Shown: positions 2,904 to 45,872, numbered from the stretch's first letter. The stretch is 64,000 nucleotides of DNA from Planctomycetota bacterium (GCA_030836185.1 JAURQH010000031.1:186001-250000); one strand, 5' to 3'. Notes: a model not told the origin generated them from the sequence alone. Made by a program: numbers and translations.

Positions 2904-4346
2904 TTACAAGTTCTTCAACAGCGTATCAGCCTCTTCTTTGAGCTCCACATCCCGATCTGGATTGAGAAAACGGTTGATGACCGATTGCATCTGCTCGCAG
3001 GCTTTTTCGATGCGTGAGGCGGCGATTCGATTACCGGATTTCAGGGAGGCACGAATCCCTTTTTCTTGGATGATCTCTAATCGGGACTGATAGGACTGCC
3101 GGCCGGGAAGTGCGTCGTGTCGAATTTTCAAACGGCTTGTGAGGTCGGCATCTCCTTGTTTGGCTGCTTGAAGAATCCGAATTCGGCTGATCGCACGACG
3201 AGAGACGTCGGCGACCAAATCAGTCCGTAATCGTTCCAATTCCCCTTCCACTTTCAGTCGGTCGGAATCATCGGGAAGATTCAAAATCTCCTGCTCTGCC
3301 CAACCTGGAACAAACGGCACTCGTGCCAAGATCGCTTCTCCACTCCAGACATAAAGCCAGACCAACTCTTCTCCATTGAGGGCCGAAACGGAGAGTTGCC
3401 CCTGTCGGTCACTCAGCAGTTCTTTTGGTTCGCCTGTGGCTTCTTCTTTAAGAAGTCGTTTTGGTTGGATCACAACGCGGTGTCCCATCAAAACCTGGTC
3501 GGGTGCTCCTTGCATGACGAGCTTGACACTTGTTGGTTGAGAGAGCGGGCGTTCTCCTAACGCCCAGAGGCTAACACGATTTGATCGGCCCCTTCCTAAT
3601 GGAGCAGGAAATGCGGAGAGTAGTCGCGATGTGATTCTTGCTCGTGAGCGAGAATCCAAAGAAAGGTATGTGAGGGGAAGTGTTTGGACCTGTTGCAATT
3701 GTTGGTCTCTGTCACGATAGAGAATGACGGGTCGGGCGAGTCCGCGGGGGCGGAAGCAGGAAAAGAGTGGATCGTCGAGCGTCCATTCTCCTGCGATGGC
3801 AATCATGCCAATCTGATCTCTTTGTATTTGCGAAATTTGATAAACCGGTCGAAAACTTTCTCCGATCAGGCGGTGTAATGTTGCTGCGAGAAAACGATTG
3901 TCATCGATTTTCTGGTGACGAACGAGGCTCCATTGTTGAGTGGTTTGGTCGCCTTCACGGACTGCGATTGTGATTTCTTCGGCTTGATGAGTCAGCGTGA
4001 CGACGAATATTTTTGCAGCGCGCTTGTGCTTTAGTAGAGTTTTTGAGTTGTCAGTCAGAGATGCAACACTCTGTCCGTTTAAGAACGAGTTGGATATGGT
4101 CAGAGTCCAAGAGTCTTTAACAGATCTCTGCATACGATTATTTAAGTCACTTTGTATGGCTTTGCGAAAGTCTTCGGACCATTCAGGATTTTGTTCCCAG
4201 TTGAGTTCAATCTGTACGTCATATTTGAGTGTGGCAATTTCTCGATAGATTAAATCTTCCTCTGACGCGCATAGCTCGATAGGACCGAGCATCATGATGA
4301 GGCTCAGGGAGAGGAATGACAGACTAAAAAATCGGCAGAATTTCAT
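2904..4346 (-). CDS. secreted protein of unknown function, last gene of envelope operon
   Basis: A 480-aa protein with a long N-terminal signal (about residues 1-27). The mature part has an alpha/beta N-terminal half containing a basic RGLARPVILYRDRD segment. A middle beta region (about 260-345) resembles an extracellular beta-sandwich. The C-terminal third is a charged helical region, probably coiled coil (about 365-480). I recognise no catalytic motif. The start ATG overlaps the stop of the solute-binding-like gene upstream (ATGA, 4343-4346), so the two are translationally coupled and probably work together in the periplasm. Function unknown. Confidence 0.75.
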   Translation of the reverse strand: MKFCRFFSLSFLSLSLIMMLGPIELCASEEDLIYREIATLKYDVQIELNWEQNPEWSEDFRKAIQSDLNNRMQRSVKDSWTLTISNSFLNGQSVASLTDNSKTLLKHKRAAKIFVVTLTHQAEEITIAVREGDQTTQQWSLVRHQKIDDNRFLAATLHRLIGESFRPVYQISQIQRDQIGMIAIAGEWTLDDPLFSCFRPRGLARPVILYRDRDQQLQQVQTLPLTYLSLDSRSRARITSRLLSAFPAPLGRGRSNRVSLWALGERPLSQPTSVKLVMQGAPDQVLMGHRVVIQPKRLLKEEATGEPKELLSDRQGQLSVSALNGEELVWLYVWSGEAILARVPFVPGWAEQEILNLPDDSDRLKVEGELERLRTDLVADVSRRAISRIRILQAAKQGDADLTSRLKIRHDALPGRQSYQSRLEIIQEKGIRASLKSGNRIAASRIEKACEQMQSVINRFLNPDRDVELKEEADTLLKNL

Positions 4347-6769
4347 GGACGTGATTGATCGAACCAGGGGGAGATTACCCAGCGGTTGATATTTTGATAA
4401 GGGTGCAGCGGAGAACTGGGAAGCCCTGTCAGATTATGACGGGACAATGAAAAACGGTCGACTTCCCACAAGGGAAGGTAAAAAACTTCACTCCATAGAG
4501 ATTGATGCAGTTCGTGCAATTGAGCCCGGGCATCATTCCAGTTGGTGGAAAGTTCCAGTTGGATGAGTTCTTGGCGTAGCCAGCCGGGTAAAACCTGAAG
4601 ATCGGCCACACGAGTCATCGATTGAGTGGTCAGCAGCGGCCATAATTGAGTAAGGGGTTCGGTCATGGTGATCACACGATAGGCAAGATCCCAGTTTTCA
4701 GGTTGTGAATCGTCGGAAGCGATGGTGACAACTTTGACGCCAATGCGTTCCCAGTTTTCGATGATGCGATTGATGGCGGGGCGTAGTCCTGGGTCGGGAG
4801 GAATTATCATTCGCAAAGTCGGGACTTTTCCTTTCAACGCTTTTTCTGCGGCGAGAGTCAGGGATCGTGCGACATACGGATCAGGAGAAATCTCTTTCAC
4901 AAGCGGATTGAAGGCACGACTTTGTGAGGGAAAAACGGATGTTGTGAGACGCCCGAACTGGGCGGGAGCACCTTTGAGGATAGTCGTGCGAAGAAGCTCT
5001 TCCCGGTCGAGGGCGTAGAGCATCGCGCGTCGTAATTCACTGTTTTCTGCTAATAATGTGCCTGGGCGTATCTGGATGAAATGTGCTTCCGGGATCTGGT
5101 ACTTGCGAATGATCCAGTCTGATTTGCTTTCGAGTTGAGCCGCATGTTCTACGGGAAGTTCGGGGATATAATCAATTTCGCCCCGGAAGAGTGCTCTGAG
5201 AATTTCTTCATGATTCACAAATGACGATTCGTGGATTTCCGTCACATGACGTTGTGGGACATTTTCTGCTTCCGAAAACGCCCGGCGAAACATGGCTTGT
5301 TCGGAATTGACGGGTTTGATCTCCAGCCAGTTGTTGTTCTGAGATGTTGTTCGAATAGGTTGTGAGAGAATCGCCTCTGGGCGTAGCGGAGTTCGCTGAA
5401 ATTTCAATTCCAGTCGATAAGGAGATCGTACTTGGATTTCTTCAATGAACCCGCTGAGTTGCTCATTGAAGAACGGATGGTTTGGGTCGAGTTGGAGTCT
5501 CAATGAATCGGCCAGTTGGACGGCCGTCAAAGGAGTCTGCGGATTCCAATAGTCGAAGGTTGTTTGCAGGGTTAGGTCGAGATTTCGTCCCAGTTCGGTG
5601 GGCTCCCATTGTTCGATGAGGGACGTGTGATAATGAGGAGAATCATCGAAACTATTTATCTCGAACAACGATTGTTGTGTGATGGATTTCTCGCGGAGGT
5701 CGGCTTTCGTTGGAAATGGATAGTGGCTCTTTGAGCCAGCGGGCTTGATGACGCCTGCTTTTAGAATCTGATATGTGGCTGCATAATTGCGATGGCTGTC
5801 TCGTAGTGCTGTCTCGTATGGCCAGATTGTTGCTGCTTGAGTGCTGAGAATGACTGCATTGCGATGATCGTCTGAACGTGAGGCTGAGCGAGCGGCGTTG
5901 AGAACTTCTTGCATCTGTGACTTCAGCCTGTTGGATTGCTGAGTAATCGTCGGGTGTTGAGGCAGCTTTTGTTCGAGTCGATGTAGGAAGTGACGCGCTC
6001 GCCTGTAGGCTCCTTCAGAAATCGCGATGTCAATGAGATCGACAGTTGTGGCTGCCAACATCTGAGAGAGTTCGGGATAGTCTGAGTTCTGCTTACGCAA
6101 CTGTTCAAATCGGCCGAGGGCGGCATTGAAATCTTTTTGCCTACGGAGAGAGATCCCATTTTGGAAAATAAGTCGATGATGTGTCTCGTTGAGCTCTGGC
6201 CAGTTGTCGTCAATGTGCCGCAAGGCAAAGAGTAAGTCGTACGCTGAATCAAACTTTTCCTCGTTCGTCAATATTTCGGCACGCTTGAGCATCAGATCTT
6301 CGTGATGCCAAATCGATTCGATCAAATTCGTGAGAATTAAAAACTCGGGGGCTTCGGTGGCGTCAATGAATCCGCCTCTGATCCGACGAAGTTGGTAAAC
6401 GCGATCTTGGAAGACTTTCAGCTTTTGTGGGTTCGTCGGTGCTCCCTCCAGCTTCATCTTTAACAGTTGCTCGGCTTGTCTTTCGAGAGTGTTCGGGCGC
6501 GGAGCGATAGGGCGAGAAATGACGACACGCTTGTTTGTCAGGATGATCCAAGTCACTTTGGGACCGGTCAGCAATTCTTGGGCAGTGGGGATCGTAAGAT
6601 CGTCAAATAATGGGAGATCTGTGACACGGGAATCGTCTTCTTTCGGAGTTTTTGGCTCGTTCTCGGTCGAGGTGTCTGGAGGTTTGGGAGCTTCTTCGCT
6701 TGGTTGGGCGTGCAGCGTGAGGGACAATGCACAGATCAAGATGAACGAGTAGAGAGATCGGGTGATCAT
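4343..6769 (-). CDS. family-5 solute-binding-protein-like periplasmic protein with helical repeats
   Basis: An 808-aa exported protein (signal peptide about 1-21, ending LHAQ). After a Pro/Glu-rich linker, residues about 100-330 form helical, TPR-like repeats. Residues about 370-795 look like an SBP_bac_5 (oligopeptide/nickel binding) domain: an early WEPTELGRNLDLTLQTTFDYW segment, a mid EIDYIPELP segment, RRAMLYALDREELL and a late WSEVFYLPLWEVDRFSL. No permease or ATPase genes of an ABC importer are nearby, so it may act as a sensor or carrier rather than as an importer subunit. It is coupled by ATGA overlaps to the FHA-propeller gene upstream and the 480-aa protein downstream. Substrate unknown. 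Confidence 0.72.
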   Translation of the reverse strand: MITRSLYSFILICALSLTLHAQPSEEAPKPPDTSTENEPKTPKEDDSRVTDLPLFDDLTIPTAQELLTGPKVTWIILTNKRVVISRPIAPRPNTLERQAEQLLKMKLEGAPTNPQKLKVFQDRVYQLRRIRGGFIDATEAPEFLILTNLIESIWHHEDLMLKRAEILTNEEKFDSAYDLLFALRHIDDNWPELNETHHRLIFQNGISLRRQKDFNAALGRFEQLRKQNSDYPELSQMLAATTVDLIDIAISEGAYRRARHFLHRLEQKLPQHPTITQQSNRLKSQMQEVLNAARSASRSDDHRNAVILSTQAATIWPYETALRDSHRNYAATYQILKAGVIKPAGSKSHYPFPTKADLREKSITQQSLFEINSFDDSPHYHTSLIEQWEPTELGRNLDLTLQTTFDYWNPQTPLTAVQLADSLRLQLDPNHPFFNEQLSGFIEEIQVRSPYRLELKFQRTPLRPEAILSQPIRTTSQNNNWLEIKPVNSEQAMFRRAFSEAENVPQRHVTEIHESSFVNHEEILRALFRGEIDYIPELPVEHAAQLESKSDWIIRKYQIPEAHFIQIRPGTLLAENSELRRAMLYALDREELLRTTILKGAPAQFGRLTTSVFPSQSRAFNPLVKEISPDPYVARSLTLAAEKALKGKVPTLRMIIPPDPGLRPAINRIIENWERIGVKVVTIASDDSQPENWDLAYRVITMTEPLTQLWPLLTTQSMTRVADLQVLPGWLRQELIQLELSTNWNDARAQLHELHQSLWSEVFYLPLWEVDRFSLSRHNLTGLPSSPLHPYQNINRWVISPWFDQSRP

Positions 6770-9700
6770 GGCCGATTCTCCGTCTCAGGCTCGATGGGCA
6801 ACATGAAGAGGGAGCCATCGGCAAGCGGAGCAACGGGGGTTTCATTCAATAGAAACGGATTTCCCAAACAGCTACCGGGAGTCGAGAGTTGATGAATTAT
6901 TTTTCCATCCGTGAGACTGACCCTCCAGATTCCAGAATGACTGGTGGGAATCAACCAGTGATTGTCGTGTTGTAGAGGAATACCCGCAATTGTGTTCCCA
7001 TCCAATGGCAAGTTCCATTGCTCTGTGAGTTGCTCGTCAACTGAGAAACAGCCTAAACAGCCGTTATCAAGTTGCAGAAAGAAAACATCGTTTACGACGT
7101 GGATTTTCTTGTTCGGAGTGTTTGTTAGCTTCCGAGATGCCACAGCCTGAAGAGTGGTACTGTCCAGAGTGATAAGCATATTCGTCTGATCAATGACCAC
7201 GAGATGATGGCTGGAAGTCAGCGTTGGCGCGATGGTGACGGGAGTATCAAAAGTGAGTTCACCTGCGATTGCAAGATGTTTGACGGGTTCAGAACGGTAT
7301 TCAATTCGACGTAATGTGTGTGATGAATCGAGACATATGAGATGTTTTTCATCGACTCGCACTATGGCAGTCCACTGCTCCTGCTTGCCATCGATGACGG
7401 GTAACACATAGTCTTCACACGTTGATCCCGCGCGAGGAAAAAGATGTAGTCTTCCTGGCAAGCCGATTGTTGTACCTGCTTGTAGGTCGATGGGGATCGT
7501 TGTGGGTGAAGCGGAGAGTTTGTGAGTCGATTCAACTTGACCCGTTGGGCGGATGGTGACAACTTGTGGGTCGTCACCTCCCCACGCCACTGCAAAACGT
7601 CCGTCGCTGAATTGAGTGATGCGAGGCGGTGTGTCCAGTTCTTCGGGAAAGTCGAGGGACGCATTAGGGCTTGTTTGAAAACCATAATGTGAAAAATCGG
7701 TTTTTCGAAGCCGGAAAATTTCTCCAGAATCATGAAGAGTAATGAGTTCTCCTGCGCTATTCACACGCTGTTGTCGCAGTGGATTGCCAAGTGTCGTTCT
7801 CCAGGTCCCTGTGAATGTATTGCGGTTGTAGCGTGAGAGTCGGACCGACGAGGTCGAGGGAGAACGGCGAGCGACGAAAAGGTTCTCTCCAGAAAGCTGC
7901 ATCGGCTGAGTGGCGTACCCGAGAGCCGTAATGTCGGTTGAAGCCTCGAGTGTTTCCGTCAATAATTTCAAACGTCTCAGTGCGGTGGACGCCATCCAGA
8001 CTTGTCCATCGGGGCCTGCGGATAGCCAGGTCGATGTGGTCTTGGGATTGACGACTTGATGAGAGTCAACTTTTACTAAAGGAGGAACCCCTTGTTCTTC
8101 CGAAACGGTAAAGGCAGTGATACGCTCAGGGGAGGCCGGCACGAACAGTTCGTTTCCTCTCAAGACAGGAATGTCGAAAATGTTACCCGGAAGTCTTTCT
8201 TTAGCGACTTCTGCGAGCAGTTTGTTTTCGATACGTGTGTCAAACAGATGTAACAAACAGGAATCGCTTTGATCGTTCTCGGTGATTAAAACGAATGGCC
8301 CCAACCGTAACGGCGGCACTGAGATTGCTCCTGGACCATGACCGGTGTAGAGCACTTCCTTCAGCTCGAGAGGGTTTCGAGAAAGAAGATAAATGACATC
8401 CTTCTGGCCGACGGCCAGAAGGTGTTTCTTGTCTGTAAGCAGTTCGGCAGACGCCGAAAATGGCTGGGAAACGGTGAGTTGTGAGATGATGAGTCCGCTG
8501 TTGACATCCAGTTTGATCAATTGGCCTTGATCTGTTGTGACGAAGGCTTCTGTGCCGAGAATCAGTGGTGGCCCCGTGACCTTATCTTCGAGAGGTTGTC
8601 TCCAAATAACTTTTCCGCTGTCCCGCAGTAGAAATTGTAGTTCACGATGGAGAGGAGAATGGCACAGAATTGAGGGCTGACCAACGGTGATTTCAATCGG
8701 GAAAAAATCCATGTTCCAGCCGATGTGATGTCGCCAAAGCGGGGCTCCGGTCGCAGAGTCTACGCCATAAAGACAATCAGCAGCGTGTGCGATAACAGCG
8801 CGGTTGGAGGGAAGTTGTTCTTTGGAAATACGTGTAGAAGCGGCGAGTGTAATGAGTGAGTCATCTATCGTTTCGAGAGGTGCTTCGGCCTGTCGCGCTT
8901 CTTGGGACACGGTCTCAGATTTCTTTTCGAGTCGCAGGGCGTCGTTAAGTAATTTTGAGATTCGTGAATCCGTTGCCGCACTTGCATAGCGGGAGATCAG
9001 GTCTCGACGGGTTGACATTAACTCTGCTGGGAAACCTTGCTTTAGAGCGGTTTCCATCTTTTTGATCGACTCATCAAAGACATCGTGCCTCAAAATGGAA
9101 GCCTCTGCGGAACGGCGGGCCACTTTGACTTCTTCGTGAATTTGTTCCGCCCGTTCCTTTTCTGCTGTGTAGAGATCGACCAGTCGCAGTGCGCTTTCCG
9201 ATAATTGAAAAATTGAAGTGTCGCGTTTATCAGCCGCTTCTTGGCAAGCCTCGTTGGCAATTTGTGACGCATATTGACTGATACTTCCGTGCATCTCGTT
9301 GAAGCCATCTTCATCACGATGACGGGCGATCAGTTCCTCTAATTCCTCCAATCCTGCAGGCAAATCGGGGACTCCAATATCAAGATAGGAGCGGACGTGT
9401 GTGAGGCTCAACTCTCGATAAGCCGTTTCGTTTTCGGCATCATAAGGGAACTTAAGCAAGTATTGTTCATAGTCGGTGATTGCTTGTTGAAACTTCCGTT
9501 GATCAGCTTGTCCCCTTGCTCGGGCGAGATATCTGTCAGCTTCCTCCAAATTGATCAAGGACCAAAGAACAACAGCACCAATCAATAAAAAGACTGCTCC
9601 CAAAGTCAGTCCCATCACCAAAGGGGATCGGAAAAGTTCTCGTTCCCCCGGACGTTGTCGAGAGGCTGACATGGCTTCTCGCAACTTACCTGCTGTGGAG

Positions 9701-10341
9701 TCTTCTTTCTTCGGTGAGTTTGTTATGCCAGAATGTGTTCCCGCTCTGGGGAGCATCGCATCAACTTTGTCGGATTTATCTTCCTTTTCCGCCAGTTCCT
9801 CAAAAACGGAGGGTTTCAATTCTGGAGGAGGAGTGATTTTTTCGGGAGTTTTGGGCTTCGGGTTTGCGGGAACAGAGGGTTTCTTCTCCGATGGTTTTGG
9901 GGGAGTCGGGACAGGTGCGAGTGGATTGAGTGATTGTTTTTCCCAGGCAGGGATTTCATCGGTAATTGGGGCAAGTGCTATATCATCCGATGACCGACTT
10001 TTTTCATCGTCGGATTTATTCTCGAAAGGATCTTCGCCGAGCTGATTAGCGTCTGATTCCGTGGTGAACAAAAATTGTGAGGAGCCGATCACAAATCGGT
10101 CTCCCGAATTGAGTCCCGCTGAGTTCACTGACTTGCCATTGACGAGAATACCTTGGTCGCCGGCGGAAGTGATTTCAAACTGCTTTTTAGACCAACTAAT
10201 GCGAGCTTCAATTAACGCGACCCCTTCATCATCGAGTTGAATATCGCTGATAGAGTGCGAACCGATGGACAGCGGTTGGTTTTTACGCAACTCGAAACGC
10301 TGAAGAACGTAGTTTGGAGATTTGACCAGTAAAAGCGACAT
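6766..10341 (-). CDS. FHA-transmembrane-TPR-beta-propeller signalling protein
   Basis: A 1191-aa bitopic membrane protein. Residues 1-95 are an FHA phosphothreonine-binding domain (SIGSHSISDIQL at about 25-36, the NGK turn at about 68-70). Residues about 100-235 are a Pro/Lys/Glu-rich linker. One transmembrane helix spans about 241-263. Residues about 265-480 are TPR-like helices (ADQRKFQQAITDYEQYLLKF is a typical repeat). Residues about 510-1185 are a PQQ-type beta-propeller with repeated GAPLWRHHIGW, GKVIWRQPL and GKIIHQL blades. The predicted topology is FHA in the cytoplasm and propeller in the periplasm. It lies 59 bp after the zinc-ribbon exbD gene and overlaps the next gene by ATGA, so it is probably in the same operon. 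It could couple Ser/Thr phosphorylation inside to an assembly outside; that role is inferred. Confidence 0.8.
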   Translation of the reverse strand: MSLLLVKSPNYVLQRFELRKNQPLSIGSHSISDIQLDDEGVALIEARISWSKKQFEITSAGDQGILVNGKSVNSAGLNSGDRFVIGSSQFLFTTESDANQLGEDPFENKSDDEKSRSSDDIALAPITDEIPAWEKQSLNPLAPVPTPPKPSEKKPSVPANPKPKTPEKITPPPELKPSVFEELAEKEDKSDKVDAMLPRAGTHSGITNSPKKEDSTAGKLREAMSASRQRPGERELFRSPLVMGLTLGAVFLLIGAVVLWSLINLEEADRYLARARGQADQRKFQQAITDYEQYLLKFPYDAENETAYRELSLTHVRSYLDIGVPDLPAGLEELEELIARHRDEDGFNEMHGSISQYASQIANEACQEAADKRDTSIFQLSESALRLVDLYTAEKERAEQIHEEVKVARRSAEASILRHDVFDESIKKMETALKQGFPAELMSTRRDLISRYASAATDSRISKLLNDALRLEKKSETVSQEARQAEAPLETIDDSLITLAASTRISKEQLPSNRAVIAHAADCLYGVDSATGAPLWRHHIGWNMDFFPIEITVGQPSILCHSPLHRELQFLLRDSGKVIWRQPLEDKVTGPPLILGTEAFVTTDQGQLIKLDVNSGLIISQLTVSQPFSASAELLTDKKHLLAVGQKDVIYLLSRNPLELKEVLYTGHGPGAISVPPLRLGPFVLITENDQSDSCLLHLFDTRIENKLLAEVAKERLPGNIFDIPVLRGNELFVPASPERITAFTVSEEQGVPPLVKVDSHQVVNPKTTSTWLSAGPDGQVWMASTALRRLKLLTETLEASTDITALGYATQPMQLSGENLFVARRSPSTSSVRLSRYNRNTFTGTWRTTLGNPLRQQRVNSAGELITLHDSGEIFRLRKTDFSHYGFQTSPNASLDFPEELDTPPRITQFSDGRFAVAWGGDDPQVVTIRPTGQVESTHKLSASPTTIPIDLQAGTTIGLPGRLHLFPRAGSTCEDYVLPVIDGKQEQWTAIVRVDEKHLICLDSSHTLRRIEYRSEPVKHLAIAGELTFDTPVTIAPTLTSSHHLVVIDQTNMLITLDSTTLQAVASRKLTNTPNKKIHVVNDVFFLQLDNGCLGCFSVDEQLTEQWNLPLDGNTIAGIPLQHDNHWLIPTSHSGIWRVSLTDGKIIHQLSTPGSCLGNPFLLNETPVAPLADGSLFMLPIEPETENRP

Positions 10342-10400
10342 TTAGGCTAACAATCTGATGGGACGTGACATATTGAGTTTTTAATCAAAGAGAATGTGAC

Positions 10401-11168
10401 TTAATCATCGGGGCCAGCAGCCAAACGTATTTTTTGCATACCAACCTCATTGGCAGTGTCCAACACGAACACCACCGTTTCCTGATGGGCGGCATCGGCA
10501 ACTTTGACGAGTGCTTCGGCTTTTTGGTCTCGTTGCATTGAGGTGGTCAACTCGTCTCGTAACAACTGTGGGTCGGCGAGTTCTCTGTCATCCAGTCGGA
10601 TGGAGTTTTCGGCAGTGATCTCGATTTGGATGGATTTTTCCAGGAGGTCGTCCTCGGGTTGAATCGGTTGGGCCGCACTTTGTTCATTAGGGTCAGGGAC
10701 CGGTGTGGGGATCGTTTTTTCTAACGTAAACGAAGCGGTAATCATAAAGAAGATCAACAAGAGGAACGTGACATCAACCATCGGCGTGAGGTCCATGTCC
10801 TCAGACTCTTCTCGCTCGCGCCGAAATTGTAGAGGTCCTTCTTCGGGTGGTTGCGAGTCGGGCGTGATTGCAAAGAAAGGATCGATCTCTTCATTGCTGT
10901 CTGCTGTTGTCGGCGTCACTGATAATGTTTTAGGAGAAGCAGCGAATTCTTGAGTCTCTGGTGAGGAAGTCGCAGGTCCGTCTTCCGCCGGGGCAAACAC
11001 GATTCCAGAGGCTGAAGATGGCTCGATAGAGGGAGTTAGTTGGAGTTGATCTTCGGTGGGGATTTCCGTCAATTCAGCGCAGACCGGACAGGCAATTCGC
11101 TCACCAATCTTTTGGCGCGAGATGCTGAGCTTTTTCAAGCAATGTTGACAGTAATATTGAACCGGCAT
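10401..11168 (-). CDS. ExbD/TolR-family protein with N-terminal zinc ribbon
   Basis: A 255-aa protein. The last 135 residues are an ExbD/TolR unit: DLTPMVDVTFLLLIFFMI at about 124-143 carries the membrane-embedded Asp that conducts protons in this family, followed by a periplasmic domain. The N-terminus is unusual: CxxC pairs at C7/C10 and C27/C30 make a zinc ribbon, followed by an acidic, Pro/Ser-rich linker of about 85 residues. This cytoplasmic extension roughly doubles the usual ExbD length of about 140 aa. It follows the first exbD by 15 bp. With the ExbB-like gene it would form a proton-driven motor. Substrate and partner are unknown; the extension suggests a cytoplasmic contact. Confidence 0.85.
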   Translation of the reverse strand: MPVQYYCQHCLKKLSISRQKIGERIACPVCAELTEIPTEDQLQLTPSIEPSSASGIVFAPAEDGPATSSPETQEFAASPKTLSVTPTTADSNEEIDPFFAITPDSQPPEEGPLQFRREREESEDMDLTPMVDVTFLLLIFFMITASFTLEKTIPTPVPDPNEQSAAQPIQPEDDLLEKSIQIEITAENSIRLDDRELADPQLLRDELTTSMQRDQKAEALVKVADAAHQETVVFVLDTANEVGMQKIRLAAGPDD

Positions 11169-11183
11169 GGAGGATTCCGTGAC

Positions 11184-11648
11184 TTACGAACCGCGTTGAT
11201 CTTCAACTCCAAACGAAAATTCGAGTTCATCAATGAGATTGGCTTCCTGTATGACACGTCGAACAAAGCCGTGTGGCACTTCTCGCCCTGCTCTCACTAC
11301 CACATTCGTTTTACCGGTTGCATTTTGTTCGCGAATAAATCCGGCAATGTCGGCGAGACGACGTTCCTCGCCCTCAAGGATAATGATTGGTTTTCCGCCA
11401 GAAACGCGTGGCGACTGAATGACGATTAAAATCGCAGAGGCTTGATCGACGTTGACTCCGTTGCGTGCGGGAGGTACATCGACCTGTTGTTGAGAACTCA
11501 TTGTCGAAGTGACCATGAAAAAGATCAGCAACAAAAAAGTGACATCGATCATGGGTGTGATATCGAGTTCGCCAGCGGCCTCCTTGCGGCGTTTTTTTCC
11601 CCAAGTGGCTGTCAGGTCGTCTCCGAATGAGAGAGGGCGACGGTTCAT
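11184..11648 (-). CDS. exbD: ExbD/TolR-family biopolymer transport protein
   Basis: A 154-aa ExbD/TolR protein of normal size. The segment LDITPMIDVTFLLLIFFMV (about residues 28-46) is the single transmembrane helix with the conserved Asp, followed by a periplasmic domain with the late GREVPHGFVRRVIQEA block. The start at 11648 is chosen because its ATG overlaps the stop of the exbB-like gene (ATGA) and gives the typical MNRRPLSF cytoplasmic tail; a longer frame running to 11954 only reads through the exbB-like gene out of frame. Forms the proton channel with the ExbB-like protein and probably a heteromer with the zinc-ribbon ExbD. Confidence 0.9.
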   Translation of the reverse strand: MNRRPLSFGDDLTATWGKKRRKEAAGELDITPMIDVTFLLLIFFMVTSTMSSQQQVDVPPARNGVNVDQASAILIVIQSPRVSGGKPIIILEGEERRLADIAGFIREQNATGKTNVVVRAGREVPHGFVRRVIQEANLIDELEFSFGVEDQRGS

Positions 11649-12310
11649 GAACGGGGCTCCTGTTGTTTCAGGAGTGATTCCCAAGTCGCCAGGAAATCTC
11701 CGATCGTCTGTTGGACAGAGTCTTGCAGTTTCCCGACTCGAATATTGATCGCAGCTCCCGCCATCACGAGAGGAATCGCAACAGAAAGCCCCATCGCGGT
11801 GGTAAACAGGGCAAACGAAATGTCGCTTGCGAGAACTGTCGGATCCATGCCTGTCTGTTTCATGGTCGCAATTTTTGCGAACGCATTGATCATGCCGATG
11901 ACGGTCCCCAACAGTCCCAGCATGGGAGCACTTTTGACAATTGTCGAAACCCATTGGCTACGATAATCAATGTCTGCCAATATCTCTCGCTCAAATTTTT
12001 CACTGAGAACTTGTCGCATGCGTTGAGGGGGTTGAGGGTCGGCAATGGCAGTTAACACGAGTTGTGGAGCCGCCTTGTCCCAGAGTGAAGGATGGTCGCA
12101 GTAGGTGGCGAGACCTTCGAGGTCTCGGCTCGTCAGATGTTCTCGAACGGCACCAATAAATTCCTGCTCGGCTTCCAAATTGGCAAACCGTTTCTGCTTC
12201 ACGCGAATCAACAACAGGATGACCAGAAATATTCCGGCCAAAGCCGAGAGTCCCAGCACGAGGTAAATCAGGTTTCCAGCAATATCGAGAATTTGGGTAT
12301 AATTCAGCAT
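11645..12310 (-). CDS. exbB: ExbB/TolQ/MotA-family proton channel protein
   Basis: A 221-aa inner-membrane protein with three helices: about 14-36 (NLIYLVLGLSALAGIFLVIL), about 125-148 (APMLGLLGTVIGMINAFAKI, the ExbB signature) and about 165-190. A long cytoplasmic loop between the first two helices and a C-terminal cytoplasmic helix fit the MotA_ExbB domain. It provides the pentameric stator around an ExbD dimer and converts proton motive force into movement of a partner. It lies 120 bp downstream of the membrane protein at 12431-13333, whose topology resembles TonB, and overlaps exbD. Confidence 0.9.
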   Translation of the reverse strand: MLNYTQILDIAGNLIYLVLGLSALAGIFLVILLLIRVKQKRFANLEAEQEFIGAVREHLTSRDLEGLATYCDHPSLWDKAAPQLVLTAIADPQPPQRMRQVLSEKFEREILADIDYRSQWVSTIVKSAPMLGLLGTVIGMINAFAKIATMKQTGMDPTVLASDISFALFTTAMGLSVAIPLVMAGAAINIRVGKLQDSVQQTIGDFLATWESLLKQQEPRS

Positions 12311-12430
12311 GTCAAAGGGCTTGTCTTGAAAATGAATGCCGCGATGCGGTGATTGGCATCAAAATAAAGGACTTCTAAGATACTGCGAGGCGCTCATCTC
12401 TGGGTTGATAAAAGGGTAATTCCTGAAGTG

Positions 12431-13333
12431 TTAATCAAAATAGATGATTCGAGTGACCGTGAATTGATAATCGGAACCATCGCGACGGACCACAAAATAG
12501 GTGCGTCGAATTTCATCGACATCGCGTGTCGATTTTTCATGTTCCAACACGGCTAAGCGATTTTCTGTTTCGGGGGCGTAAAAGTGAAACAGGATTCCAC
12601 CCGTCACATCAATACCAGCTTTTTCAAACAAGCCTCGGTCGGCACCTCGTAAGTTGCCTCCTTGCCAAGTCATATACAGTCGTTTTTCGAGAGACCCGTC
12701 CGTCACTTCGCGTGTTGTGGGGCGACCACCAGAAAGATCGGAAAGGTAAATCAGTTTTCCTGAGGGGAGTAACGCCCCAAGTTGAATCTTGAAGTGCTCG
12801 AGTTGTTGGGCGTATTCCGTGAGAGTGGCACCTTCTTTGAAGGTAATGAACCAGCGTTGTTCTCGTGGAAGGCCTCCTTCTCCTTCCCCGACGCCCAGTG
12901 GACTTCGACCGGTTCCAGTCGCAGAACCCATCTTGCCAGCATTTCTCAAATCGGTTTCGTATTGTTCCTGAGCCTGATTGTTGGCGGTGTCGGCAAGTTC
13001 AAGAACATTATCGAGCATTTCAGACACTTCGGTTTCTTCGGACTCGATCTCGGCTAGTGAGGGATCATCCGAGATGTCTTCGGGGTATTCGACCATTAAG
13101 GTCTCATCGGGAATGCCGTCGTCGCGACCGCCTGCAAGATCAACCAGTTCTACGGGAACAAAAGAATCATTTTCAGGAGGGCGGTTCGTTAACCAAACGG
13201 CGGTCAGCCAGATTAAAAACGCAGCAAGTGCGATTGTGCCCGCGATGATCCCTGCAGTCGCCAGATCGAATCGGGTGACTTTCAGTTCGGGCGGTGCAAT
13301 CCGCGTTTCAGGTGGATGTTGTTGAGTGGGCAT
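12431..13333 (-). CDS. TonB-topology membrane protein of unknown function
   Basis: About 300 aa with one N-terminal transmembrane helix (about residues 20-47, TAGIIAGTIALAAFLIWL) and a periplasmic remainder. An acidic linker with DDPSLAEIESEETEVSEML and a Gly-rich turn (GTGRSPLGVGEGEGG) precedes a C-terminal alpha/beta domain of about 150 residues ending in YQFTVTRIIYFD. The arrangement (short cytoplasmic tail, one helix, linker, small C-terminal domain) and its position next to exbB and exbD are those of TonB or TolA, but I see no Pro-rich region or TonB box-binding signature. A GTG at 13348 is an alternative start. It is the first gene of the envelope cluster in transcription order. Confidence 0.7.
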   Translation of the reverse strand: MPTQQHPPETRIAPPELKVTRFDLATAGIIAGTIALAAFLIWLTAVWLTNRPPENDSFVPVELVDLAGGRDDGIPDETLMVEYPEDISDDPSLAEIESEETEVSEMLDNVLELADTANNQAQEQYETDLRNAGKMGSATGTGRSPLGVGEGEGGLPREQRWFITFKEGATLTEYAQQLEHFKIQLGALLPSGKLIYLSDLSGGRPTTREVTDGSLEKRLYMTWQGGNLRGADRGLFEKAGIDVTGGILFHFYAPETENRLAVLEHEKSTRDVDEIRRTYFVVRRDGSDYQFTVTRIIYFD

Positions 13334-13484
13334 TCGCGAATGATTCACGCTGTGTGGAGAGATTCTCCGATTCGAATAGTCAATTGGCCCGATGAGTTAT
13401 CATGCTATGGCAACAGGGGGCAGTCGGTCAAATTGATTCTGAGTTTCGTCTTTGATTTTAGGTGAAAATCGTTCATAACGATGT

Positions 13485-43736: not shown

Positions 43737-45872
43737 ATGAGTTCAGGCTTGCCCGATTCGCAAGGATCGCGATTCGATTTCAATGATTCTCCTGCGACGC
43801 ATCGTTTTTCGACCGACGATGCCGACGCACTTTCGACGACCATCAAACGGACACAGCGATATCTGATTGAGCGTCAGCATGGTGAAGGTTATTGGGTGGG
43901 TGAACTTGAAGGGGACACGATCCTCGAATCCGAATACATGTTGCTATTGGTCTGGTTGGAAAAAGAGAACGAGCCGGTTTTTCAGCAGTGTGCTAATTAC
44001 ATTCTCGATCAACAAAATGACGATGGTGGCTGGTCGCTGTATCCCGGCGGGCCATTGGAAATCAGTTCGTCCGTCAAAGCCTACTTCGTTCTCAAAATTG
44101 CCGGGCACGATCCGCACTCCGAATATATGATCCGTGCGAAGGAGGCCATTCTTGCCGCAGGTGGAGCCGAGACGGTCAATAGCTTCACGCGGTATTACCT
44201 CGCGCTGTTGGGAGTCATCGGCTATCACCAAGTCCCTGCGGTGCCACCAGAACTGATGTTGTTACCCAGTTGGATGCCGTTCAATATCTACGAAATGTCG
44301 TCCTGGTCGCGAACGATTATTGTTCCTTTATCATTGTTATGGCATTACAAGCCTCATCGAGAATTGCAGGCAAAGTGGCGTATCGACGAACTGTTTCACA
44401 ACGGTGTTGAAAACCTCCCTGTCTCGATGCCTCCGTCCGCGGTTGTCGATGAGTTGAAGAAACCGACTTGGATTGATTGGCATAGGTTCTTTGCTCGGGT
44501 TGATCGTGGTTTGAAATTCTGTGATCGCATCGGTCTGAGACCGTTTCGAAAAACAGCCGTCAAAAGGGCTGAGGAATGGATGCTCAAGCATTTTGAAAAG
44601 TCGGACGGCATGGGAGCCATCTTCCCGCCGATCATTTGGTCGGTCGTTGGTTTGCGGTGTCTCGGCTATGACATCGATTCTCCCGAAGTCGCTGCTCAAT
44701 TGCAGGAATTGGAGAAACTCTCCATCACTGAAGGAGACCGTACTCGGCTGCAACCTTGTAAATCACCGGTTTGGGACACCGCCATCACGACCATCGCGAT
44801 GAGGGAATCGGGTTTGTCTGCCGAACATCCGGCTCTCCGCAAATCTGTCCGCTGGCTACTCTCCAAGGAAGTGAAAGAGAAAGGGGATTGGTCGCTTCGT
44901 TCCCCGCAGCAACTTCCCGGCGGCTGGTATTTTGAATTCAATAACGAGTTCTATCCTGACGTGGACGACTCGATCATGGTGACCATGGCATTGTGGAGAT
45001 GTTTGCCACACGAGCCGGGGCAACGGTATCAGGTCCAATGGCTCGAACAGGGTTGGTCTCCACACGAAGCCGATCATGACGCGGTTGCTGTAGTTTCAGG
45101 AACCGCCCACCATAATCTTGCTGCCGTAGATGATGTTGATCTGGCATCGGCCTCTTTACCGGCGATGAAGCGGGCCATCGATTGGGTGTTGTGTATGCAG
45201 AACAGTGATGGAGGTTGGGGAGCTTTCGACCGCGATAACACACGCGAGCTCTTCACAAAGGTTCCCTTCGCCGATCACAATGCAATGATCGACCCCAGTT
45301 GGGCCGATATCTCGGCTCGTGTCCTTGAGATGCTGGCCCTTGTTGATTGGGACCGTCGACACCCGGCCATTCAGCAAGCCCTCGATTATATCTGGTCGGA
45401 GCAGGAAGAGGATGGTGCCTGGTTTGGTCGATGGGGAGTCAATTACATCTACGGGACTTGGCAAGTTCTTGTCGGCTTGACCGACTTGGGTATCCCGACA
45501 AACGATCTCCGTATTCAAAAAGGTGCGCAATGGCTCGTCGATCATCAGCAAGATAATGGTGGCTGGGGCGAAACGGCCCGCAGTTATGATGACCCCTCTC
45601 TCAGGGGGCAAGGTCCAACCACCGCGTCTCAAACCGCTTGGGCTCTCCTGGGGCTCATTGCTGCGGGGCGTGCCGATTCCGAATCAGTACGTCGTGGTGT
45701 CGAATATTTGATAATCACTCAGAACGAAGATGGCTCATGGGACGAACCGTGGTACACCGGCACTGGTTTCCCGAAAGTCTTCTATCTGAAATATCACTAT
45801 TATTGCCTGACGTTTCCCTTGTGGGCGTTGGGGAAATACCGTCAAGCGATGACGAAATCTGTGGGTGAGTGA
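43737..45872 (+). CDS. shc: squalene-hopene cyclase
   Basis: A 711-aa class II terpene cyclase converting squalene to hopene/hopanol for hopanoid lipids. The catalytic DxDD motif is DVDD at residues 408-411 (EFYPDVDDSIMV). QW repeats are visible as QNDDGGWSLYPGG, QNSDGGWGAFDRDN, QDNGGWGETA and QNEDGSWDEPW. SHC is a monotopic membrane protein; the hydrophobic YLALLGVIGY helix fits the membrane-binding patch. Hopanoid synthesis is known in planctomycetes. The gene stands alone here; squalene synthase genes are not in the window. Confidence 0.94.
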   Translation: MSSGLPDSQGSRFDFNDSPATHRFSTDDADALSTTIKRTQRYLIERQHGEGYWVGELEGDTILESEYMLLLVWLEKENEPVFQQCANYILDQQNDDGGWSLYPGGPLEISSSVKAYFVLKIAGHDPHSEYMIRAKEAILAAGGAETVNSFTRYYLALLGVIGYHQVPAVPPELMLLPSWMPFNIYEMSSWSRTIIVPLSLLWHYKPHRELQAKWRIDELFHNGVENLPVSMPPSAVVDELKKPTWIDWHRFFARVDRGLKFCDRIGLRPFRKTAVKRAEEWMLKHFEKSDGMGAIFPPIIWSVVGLRCLGYDIDSPEVAAQLQELEKLSITEGDRTRLQPCKSPVWDTAITTIAMRESGLSAEHPALRKSVRWLLSKEVKEKGDWSLRSPQQLPGGWYFEFNNEFYPDVDDSIMVTMALWRCLPHEPGQRYQVQWLEQGWSPHEADHDAVAVVSGTAHHNLAAVDDVDLASASLPAMKRAIDWVLCMQNSDGGWGAFDRDNTRELFTKVPFADHNAMIDPSWADISARVLEMLALVDWDRRHPAIQQALDYIWSEQEEDGAWFGRWGVNYIYGTWQVLVGLTDLGIPTNDLRIQKGAQWLVDHQQDNGGWGETARSYDDPSLRGQGPTTASQTAWALLGLIAAGRADSESVRRGVEYLIITQNEDGSWDEPWYTGTGFPKVFYLKYHYYCLTFPLWALGKYRQAMTKSVGE

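Follow-up and report, generated by a model that had tools for sequence, protein, structure and literature searches.

A proton-driven motor gene cluster of the Planctomycetia with a transducer-like protein and putative envelope partners

The 64,000-nucleotide stretch of a Planctomycetota bacterium genome analyzed here (GCA_030836185.1 JAURQH010000031.1:186001-250000, called the window) includes a cluster of seven genes, g1 to g7, that joins an ExbB-ExbD-ExbD motor to an inner-membrane protein with the topology of TonB, a bitopic FHA protein and two secreted proteins. These genes, together with an eighth one, g0, which is unlinked in this genome, probably encode one Planctomycetia-specific, proton-driven, trans-envelope machine that resembles the Tol and Agl systems and has a task in the envelope. 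The seven open reading frames (ORFs) run on the minus strand from 13333 to 2904, where a previous sequence-only reading had placed them, and the three 4-base overlaps that it reported, at 4343-4346 (g6/g7), 6766-6769 (g5/g6) and 11645-11648 (g2/g3), were confirmed. The genes are as follows.

g1, 12431-13333, minus strand: inner-membrane protein, TonB topology
g2, 11645-12310, minus strand: ExbB/TolQ/MotA-type motor subunit, 221 amino acids
g3, 11184-11648, minus strand: ExbD1, 154 amino acids, TPMID motif with transmembrane (TM) aspartate
g4, 10401-11168, minus strand: ExbD2, 255 amino acids, N-terminal zinc ribbon followed by ExbD
g5, 6766-10341, minus strand: bitopic protein, 1191 amino acids, degenerate FHA, TM helix, TPR-like region and propeller
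g6, 4343-6769, minus strand: secreted protein, 808 amino acids, N-terminal TPR and C-terminal SBP_bac_5
g7, 2904-4346, minus strand: secreted protein, 480 amino acids

Conservation of the gene order had been set beforehand as the test of the proposal, and the order g1-g2-g3-g4-g5-g6-g7 is kept, usually with short gaps, in more than 40 loci across the class. One set of loci was located around relatives of g6, which 34 of 40 kin genomes possess; another, of 80 loci, was obtained through g1 alignment in another collection and partly overlaps the first. Both show this order. The loci carry the labels Gimesia, Schlesneria, Thalassoglobus, Planctomicrobium, Fuerstiella, Alienimonas and Pirellulales, which places the window within the Planctomycetia, and the closest g1 record, with 97% identity, is from a Planctomycetaceae metagenome-assembled genome (MAG). 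A class survey of 199 Planctomycetia genomes that are at least 95% complete, with thresholds of 1e-3 for g1 and 1e-30 for g6, found g1 in 184 and g6 in 183; both were present in 180, neither in 12, only g1 in 4 and only g6 in 3 (Fisher p 1e-13, relatedness ignored). Since the genomes are related, such p-values suggest more independence than there is, although the pattern itself is plain. Across the phylum, g1 was found in 41 of 244 genomes, 40 of which belong to the same class, the remaining one being a very weak match. The distance between g1 and g6 is 6-9 kb in 28 of 30 one-contig genomes, and there is essentially one copy of the cluster per genome. A chance neighbourhood was rejected on the basis of this synteny and joint presence.

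The cluster is split in certain genomes, and the way in which it splits is informative. In family f2 and in G009, g1, g5, g6 and g7 are together while an orthologous g2-g3-g4 cassette is found elsewhere; the ExbB orthologues of this cassette were recognized at E values of 1e-53 to 1e-65, as compared to 1e-24 or weaker for paralogues. Family f4 (G032, G036) keeps g1-g2-g3-g4 together with g5-g6-g7 apart, and in G003 g1 is located apart, beside g0, with g2 to g7 together. A few loci have the motor cassette inverted without displacement or relocated before g1. There are so two stable blocks, motor (g2-g4) and envelope (g5-g7), and g1 accompanies either of them, which is the main reason to regard g1 as the link between the motor and the envelope parts. 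The splits could also be taken to mean that these are neighbouring genes without a common function, a reading that we consider very improbable in view of the class-wide order, the joint presence and absence, the retention of every part in the split genomes, and the fact that the motor still co-occurs when it is unlinked.

The motor subunits are clearly recognizable. The g2 product matches MotA_ExbB (Pfam, 5.5e-25) and falls in orthologous group A4, and the g3 and g4 products match ExbD (1.2e-18 and 2.8e-23, respectively). The TM aspartate, within a TPM-x-D motif in ExbD1, is present in 20/20 ExbD1 homologues and invariant in the 21 aligned ExbD2 rows. With both domains above the Pfam cut-offs and this aspartate in place, the three proteins have the characteristics of an ExbB/ExbD 5:2 proton motor. 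The claim that the cluster combines an ExbB-ExbD-ExbD motor with unusual partners was borne out, as they are conserved as a unit in gene order and joint presence. A feature that had escaped the sequence-only reading is the cytoplasmic, N-terminal zinc ribbon of ExbD2, whose cysteines are C7, C10, C27 and C30; all four are found in 19 of the 21 aligned rows and the remaining two rows are kinase fusions, described below.

The g1 protein consists of a short cytoplasmic tail, a single TM helix (residues 21-49), an acidic and glycine-rich linker, and an alpha/beta C-terminal domain (about residues 157-300). In the AlphaFold2 (AF2) model the TM helix is followed by a linker with little order, and the C-terminal domain is predicted with confidence (residues 161-300, where the ten-residue blocks have pLDDT values of 75-93). 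The linker of the aligned homologues has on average 23 acidic, 6 basic and 10 proline residues per 113. The topology is that of TonB, as had been described, yet g1 is not TonB: it lacks TonB_C, the SHLS motif and any structural match. Identification as TonB or TolA was rejected, since neither a TolA domain nor a profile or fold match was found either; profile comparison gave no match to TolA or to PDB sequences, Pfam revealed no family common to 25 g1 homologues, and TonB_C is absent from 16 of 19 genomes. On these comparisons g1 looks like a transducer family distinct from TonB/TolA as well as from vWA. Family f3 (L147-L150, L159-L161) includes only distant versions of the cluster, with a longer g1 that mostly has a TM histidine. 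In three of the four f3 genomes examined the surroundings of this histidine are TolA-like (VLLHVI, VFLHVL and VLLHIG, versus AVLHVI in TolA), which would fit, but does not prove, a descent of g1 from a TonB/TolA-like transducer. The ExbB-ExbD-ExbD cassette of the f3 genomes is divergent and located elsewhere; in L159 the gene after it codes for an FHA protein in which GR and SREH residues are retained.

A mechanism can be proposed in which ExbB and the ExbD1/ExbD2 pair would form a 5:2-type motor in the inner membrane. The TM helix of g1 would dock on this motor and its acidic flexible linker would carry force to the C-terminal domain, a role like that of TonB or TolA, so that the motor would act on g1 and, via g1, on an assembly of g5, g6, g7 and possibly g0. 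The g5 protein may be the inner-membrane scaffold, with the secreted g6, g7 and g0 held by its large periplasmic TPR and propeller part, while the cytoplasmic ends (zinc ribbon, FHA and, in relatives, a Ser/Thr kinase) would be the control and docking side. The SBP domain of g6 may bind a peptide or a cell-wall fragment. The task could be a constitutive envelope job similar to those of Tol-Pal or Agl-Glt, in which the outer envelope would be held or remodelled, perhaps where the cell buds. Several observations weigh against this proposal. Comparison of g1 to the PDB using Foldseek gave no fold match (best E 0.2), so the argument for force transmission by its C-terminal domain is drawn from topology and linkage. 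The SHLS motif, through which TonB, TolA and many vWA transducers bind their motors (PMC12204202), is present in the TM helix of none of 25 aligned g1 proteins, that of the window included. As for the task, the cluster is without an outer-membrane partner, although the search did not extend to Pal, TonB receptors and other possible partners.

The g5 protein includes regions matching FHA (2e-7), Yop-YscD_cpl (6e-8) and PQQ_2 (2e-11) in Pfam. The FHA domain spans residues 1 to about 100 and is followed by a TM helix near 240-262, read from the sequence, by a periplasmic TPR-like region and by a C-terminal PQQ/BamB-type propeller. The FHA region also reaches the cut-off of the YscD cytoplasmic family, and the YscD cytoplasmic domain is an FHA fold within a scaffold. 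The phosphothreonine contacts, which we take to be R70, S85 and N107 of Rad53 FHA1, are replaced by S, A and Q in the g5 of the window. When 53 FHA-bearing homologues were aligned to Rad53 FHA1 the structural histidine was found in 43 and the NG turn in about 50, but the contact residues were kept in 17 (R), 1 (S) and 1 (N). Furthermore, the FHA domain is missing from g5 in 30 of 65 typable loci, and certain lineages have none. With the contact residues mostly lost and the domain missing in about half of the loci, phospho-reading by this FHA is unlikely; a phosphothreonine-reading FHA was rejected on the contact residues, and the phosphorylation gating that had been suggested finds no support as far as the FHA domain is concerned. 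Three loci (L055, L056 and L050) have, instead of the FHA, a small domain at the N-terminus of g5, with the motif LTKYQAKxLL in two of them; it resembles the stretch preceding the kinase domains of neighbouring planctomycete kinases, and the one that was scanned had no Pfam matches. In five other loci (L099, L107, L115, L116 and L126) a zinc ribbon is found also on g5, and the g2-g3-g4 cassette, while keeping its place between g1 and g5, is inverted.

A connection to kinases was found in relatives. At about 14 distinct loci a Ser/Thr kinase and ExbD2 are encoded in one ORF (L113:12260-13909, L165, L057, L101, L104 and others, of a Fuerstiella-like lineage), the protein kinase domain taking the place of the zinc ribbon. 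The Pfam E values are 1e-46 to 1e-48 for the kinase and 1e-18 to 1e-27 for ExbD, and the kinases carry the G-loop, the lysine, HRD and, in most cases, DFG. A fusion is also present in G209, a genome consisting of a single contig, which makes misassembly unlikely. In two loci on Pirellulales-like contigs (L129:12913-17403 and L130) the kinase is located at the N-terminus of g5, and the two kinds of fusion probably have separate origins. Among the typed loci kinase and FHA never occur together, and the FHA is missing from all kinase-ExbD2 loci with a typed g5. The idea of a phosphorylation-gated machine could still apply by way of the kinases fused to ExbD2 or g5, in relatives only, and not through FHA. 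Cytoplasmic control may thus be a recurring theme that is exercised through exchangeable modules. These fusions, with their two placements, and the presence of FHA in about half of the typed g5 proteins could suggest a sensor, in which g6 would bind a periplasmic ligand, g5 would signal inward and a Ser/Thr kinase pathway would control the motor. We consider this quite unlikely, as the FHA lacks the phosphothreonine residues and never shares a locus with the kinase, and the system of the window has no kinase.

The g6 protein matches SBP_bac_5 (5e-14) and TPR_19 in Pfam, and its profile A3 matches NikA (1.2e-23) and DppA (7e-20) over residues 360-780 approximately. This is nearly the whole SBP fold, and a ligand is therefore likely. 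The ligands of SBP_5 proteins are usually peptides or metal chelates rather than polysaccharides. The sequence-only reading had described a binding protein lacking an ABC importer, and within the cluster this is the case: neither the seven genes nor the recurrent neighbours include a permease or ATPase, the remainder of the genome not having been searched. In-frame TGA codons within the g6 match of several relatives turned out to be ordinary stop codons in the ten examined. The g7 protein has no Pfam family; its AF2 model (mean pLDDT 89) consists of an alpha/beta N-terminal domain, beta-sandwich domains and C-terminal helices. Weak local fold similarities were found to a flagellar LPHT-ring chain (1.8e-8) and TolB (2e-6), with a whole-chain TM-score of about 0.2, and identification as TolB was rejected because there was no profile match.

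The g0 gene codes for a secreted protein of about 590 amino acids with a squalene-cyclase-like (terpene-cyclase-like) toroid and HEAT repeats. In about 30 loci it is located before g1 in the same direction, and it accompanies g1 where g1 has moved alone. The orthologue in the window's genome is on another contig (C104:120688-122391, E 3e-176). Strong matches were found in 20 of 27 genomes tested; in G009 the gene is cut by the contig end, and the four f3 genomes, G027 and the incomplete G036 gave only weak matches. The window itself includes, far from the cluster, a distant g0 relative of 711 amino acids (43737-45872, plus strand; 57 bits to the g0 profile) that is not the orthologue.

The combination of an SBP protein, a motor and g1 could also be understood as a machine powering the uptake of large polymers across the outer membrane, of the "selfish" kind and linked to crateriform structures, with g6 as the periplasmic receptor. 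The class restriction of the cluster is in favor of such a role, as are the dextran uptake and crateriform structures described in planctomycetes, the described Phycisphaeraceae being without the latter (PMC8882080). However, the conserved genes of the cluster include no TonB receptor, porin, CAZyme, pilus gene or permease, its essentially single copy per genome is housekeeping-like, and the usual ligands of SBP_5 proteins are of another kind; we regard this role as unlikely. A standing envelope task seems a better explanation than substrate uptake because the cluster is near-universal and approximately single copy, linked receptors or hydrolases are absent, and TonB_C and TolB_N are generally lacking.

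The cluster was compared to known systems, and by the tests made it belongs to none of Ton, Tol-Pal, Agl-Glt and the vWA clusters. The Agl-Glt system of Myxococcus xanthus includes AglR/AglQ/AglS, GltG, GltJ and GltD/GltE, with a bitopic FHA protein and periplasmic TPR proteins (PMC3169522, PMC9389320). The likeness in architecture is evident, as both have one ExbB/TolQ-type subunit, two ExbD/TolR-type subunits, a bitopic FHA protein and TPR regions in the periplasm, while the sequence relation is limited to the motor and FHA, and the Glt outer-membrane proteins were not seen. In Myxococcus the zinc ribbon is on the membrane protein GltJ, whereas in the planctomycete cluster it is on ExbD2. 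In addition, g5 ends in a propeller and GltG (FHA-TM-TonB_C) in TonB_C; g5 scored 20.2 bits against the GltG equivalog model, the cut-off of which is 650. Tol-Pal shares the motor, a transducer with TolA topology and periplasmic proteins, represented here by the g5 propeller, the g6 TPR and the weak local similarity of g7 to TolB. Nevertheless, the scores with the TolQ and TolR equivalogs are far under the cut-offs (70 of 221 and 51 of 127), there is no TolA domain, TolB_N is absent from all 19 genomes, and no pal gene is present in the cluster, a genome-wide search for Pal not having been made. In the vWA force-transducer clusters of the PVC group a TolQ-like gene is accompanied by two distinct genes of the TolR-like kind, by a TPR gene and by a transducer that has a TM-linker-globular layout and a fold other than that of TonB (PMC12204202). 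The planctomycete cluster has the same motor-gene set, a TPR gene and the same transducer layout, but g1 has no vWA domain according to Pfam and Foldseek, and the partners are instead an FHA-propeller protein and an SBP. TonB-ExbB-ExbD has the motor family and transducer topology in common with it, and differs in having one ExbD rather than two and a transducer with TonB_C, SHLS and a proline-rich rather than acidic linker. Finally, the C-terminal domain of g6 is within SBP_bac_5 like NikA, DppA and OppA, but is fused to TPR and encoded with a motor rather than with permease and ATPase genes. While the motor family and the FHA, propeller, TPR and SBP folds are already known, searches of libraries and of the literature, the latter open-access only, gave no instance of the combination, of the g1 family or of the kinase-ExbD fusion.

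The Planctomycetia have an unusual envelope, divide by budding, lack FtsZ and have been proposed to take up whole polymers, and few machines are known for these processes. Phycisphaerae and Brocadiae divide by binary fission, and the class border of the cluster coincides with this difference in division, a correlation only. We favor, as a guess, envelope maintenance or budding over nutrient uptake as the task. It is conceivable, but rather doubtful, that a kinase-regulated proton-driven machine with the new transducer g1 replaces Tol-Pal in the Planctomycetia and drives a trait of the class such as budding or bulk uptake. Being near-universal, approximately single-copy and class-restricted, the motor cluster is a concrete candidate, open to testing in the genetically tractable Planctopirus limnophila. 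The g1 family may add to the proton-driven 5:2 motors a further kind of transducer, and the kinase-ExbD fusions suggest that Ser/Thr kinase control of such a motor is possible.

The domain assignments of the sequence-only reading agreed with Pfam and NCBIfam, apart from g1 and g7, for which there was no matching family. A scan for terminator-like and promoter-like patterns showed no excess over shuffled sequence, and co-transcription is suggested by gene spacing only. A defence system was ruled out since there were no PADLOC hits, and a search for g6 in plasmids found nothing. ExbD1 starts at 11648, the mechanical ORF 11184-11954 being longer merely because it runs over ExbB in another frame, and for g1 the ATG at 13333 agrees better with the homologues than the GTG at 13348. 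A g1 homologue with 52% identity (L121) is located on a contig that carries the label Alphaproteobacteria MarineAlpha3_Bin4 but is most likely of planctomycete origin and mis-binned, and in one MAG (G021, L031) g5 and g6 are each found as two ORFs, probably as a consequence of assembly frameshifts.

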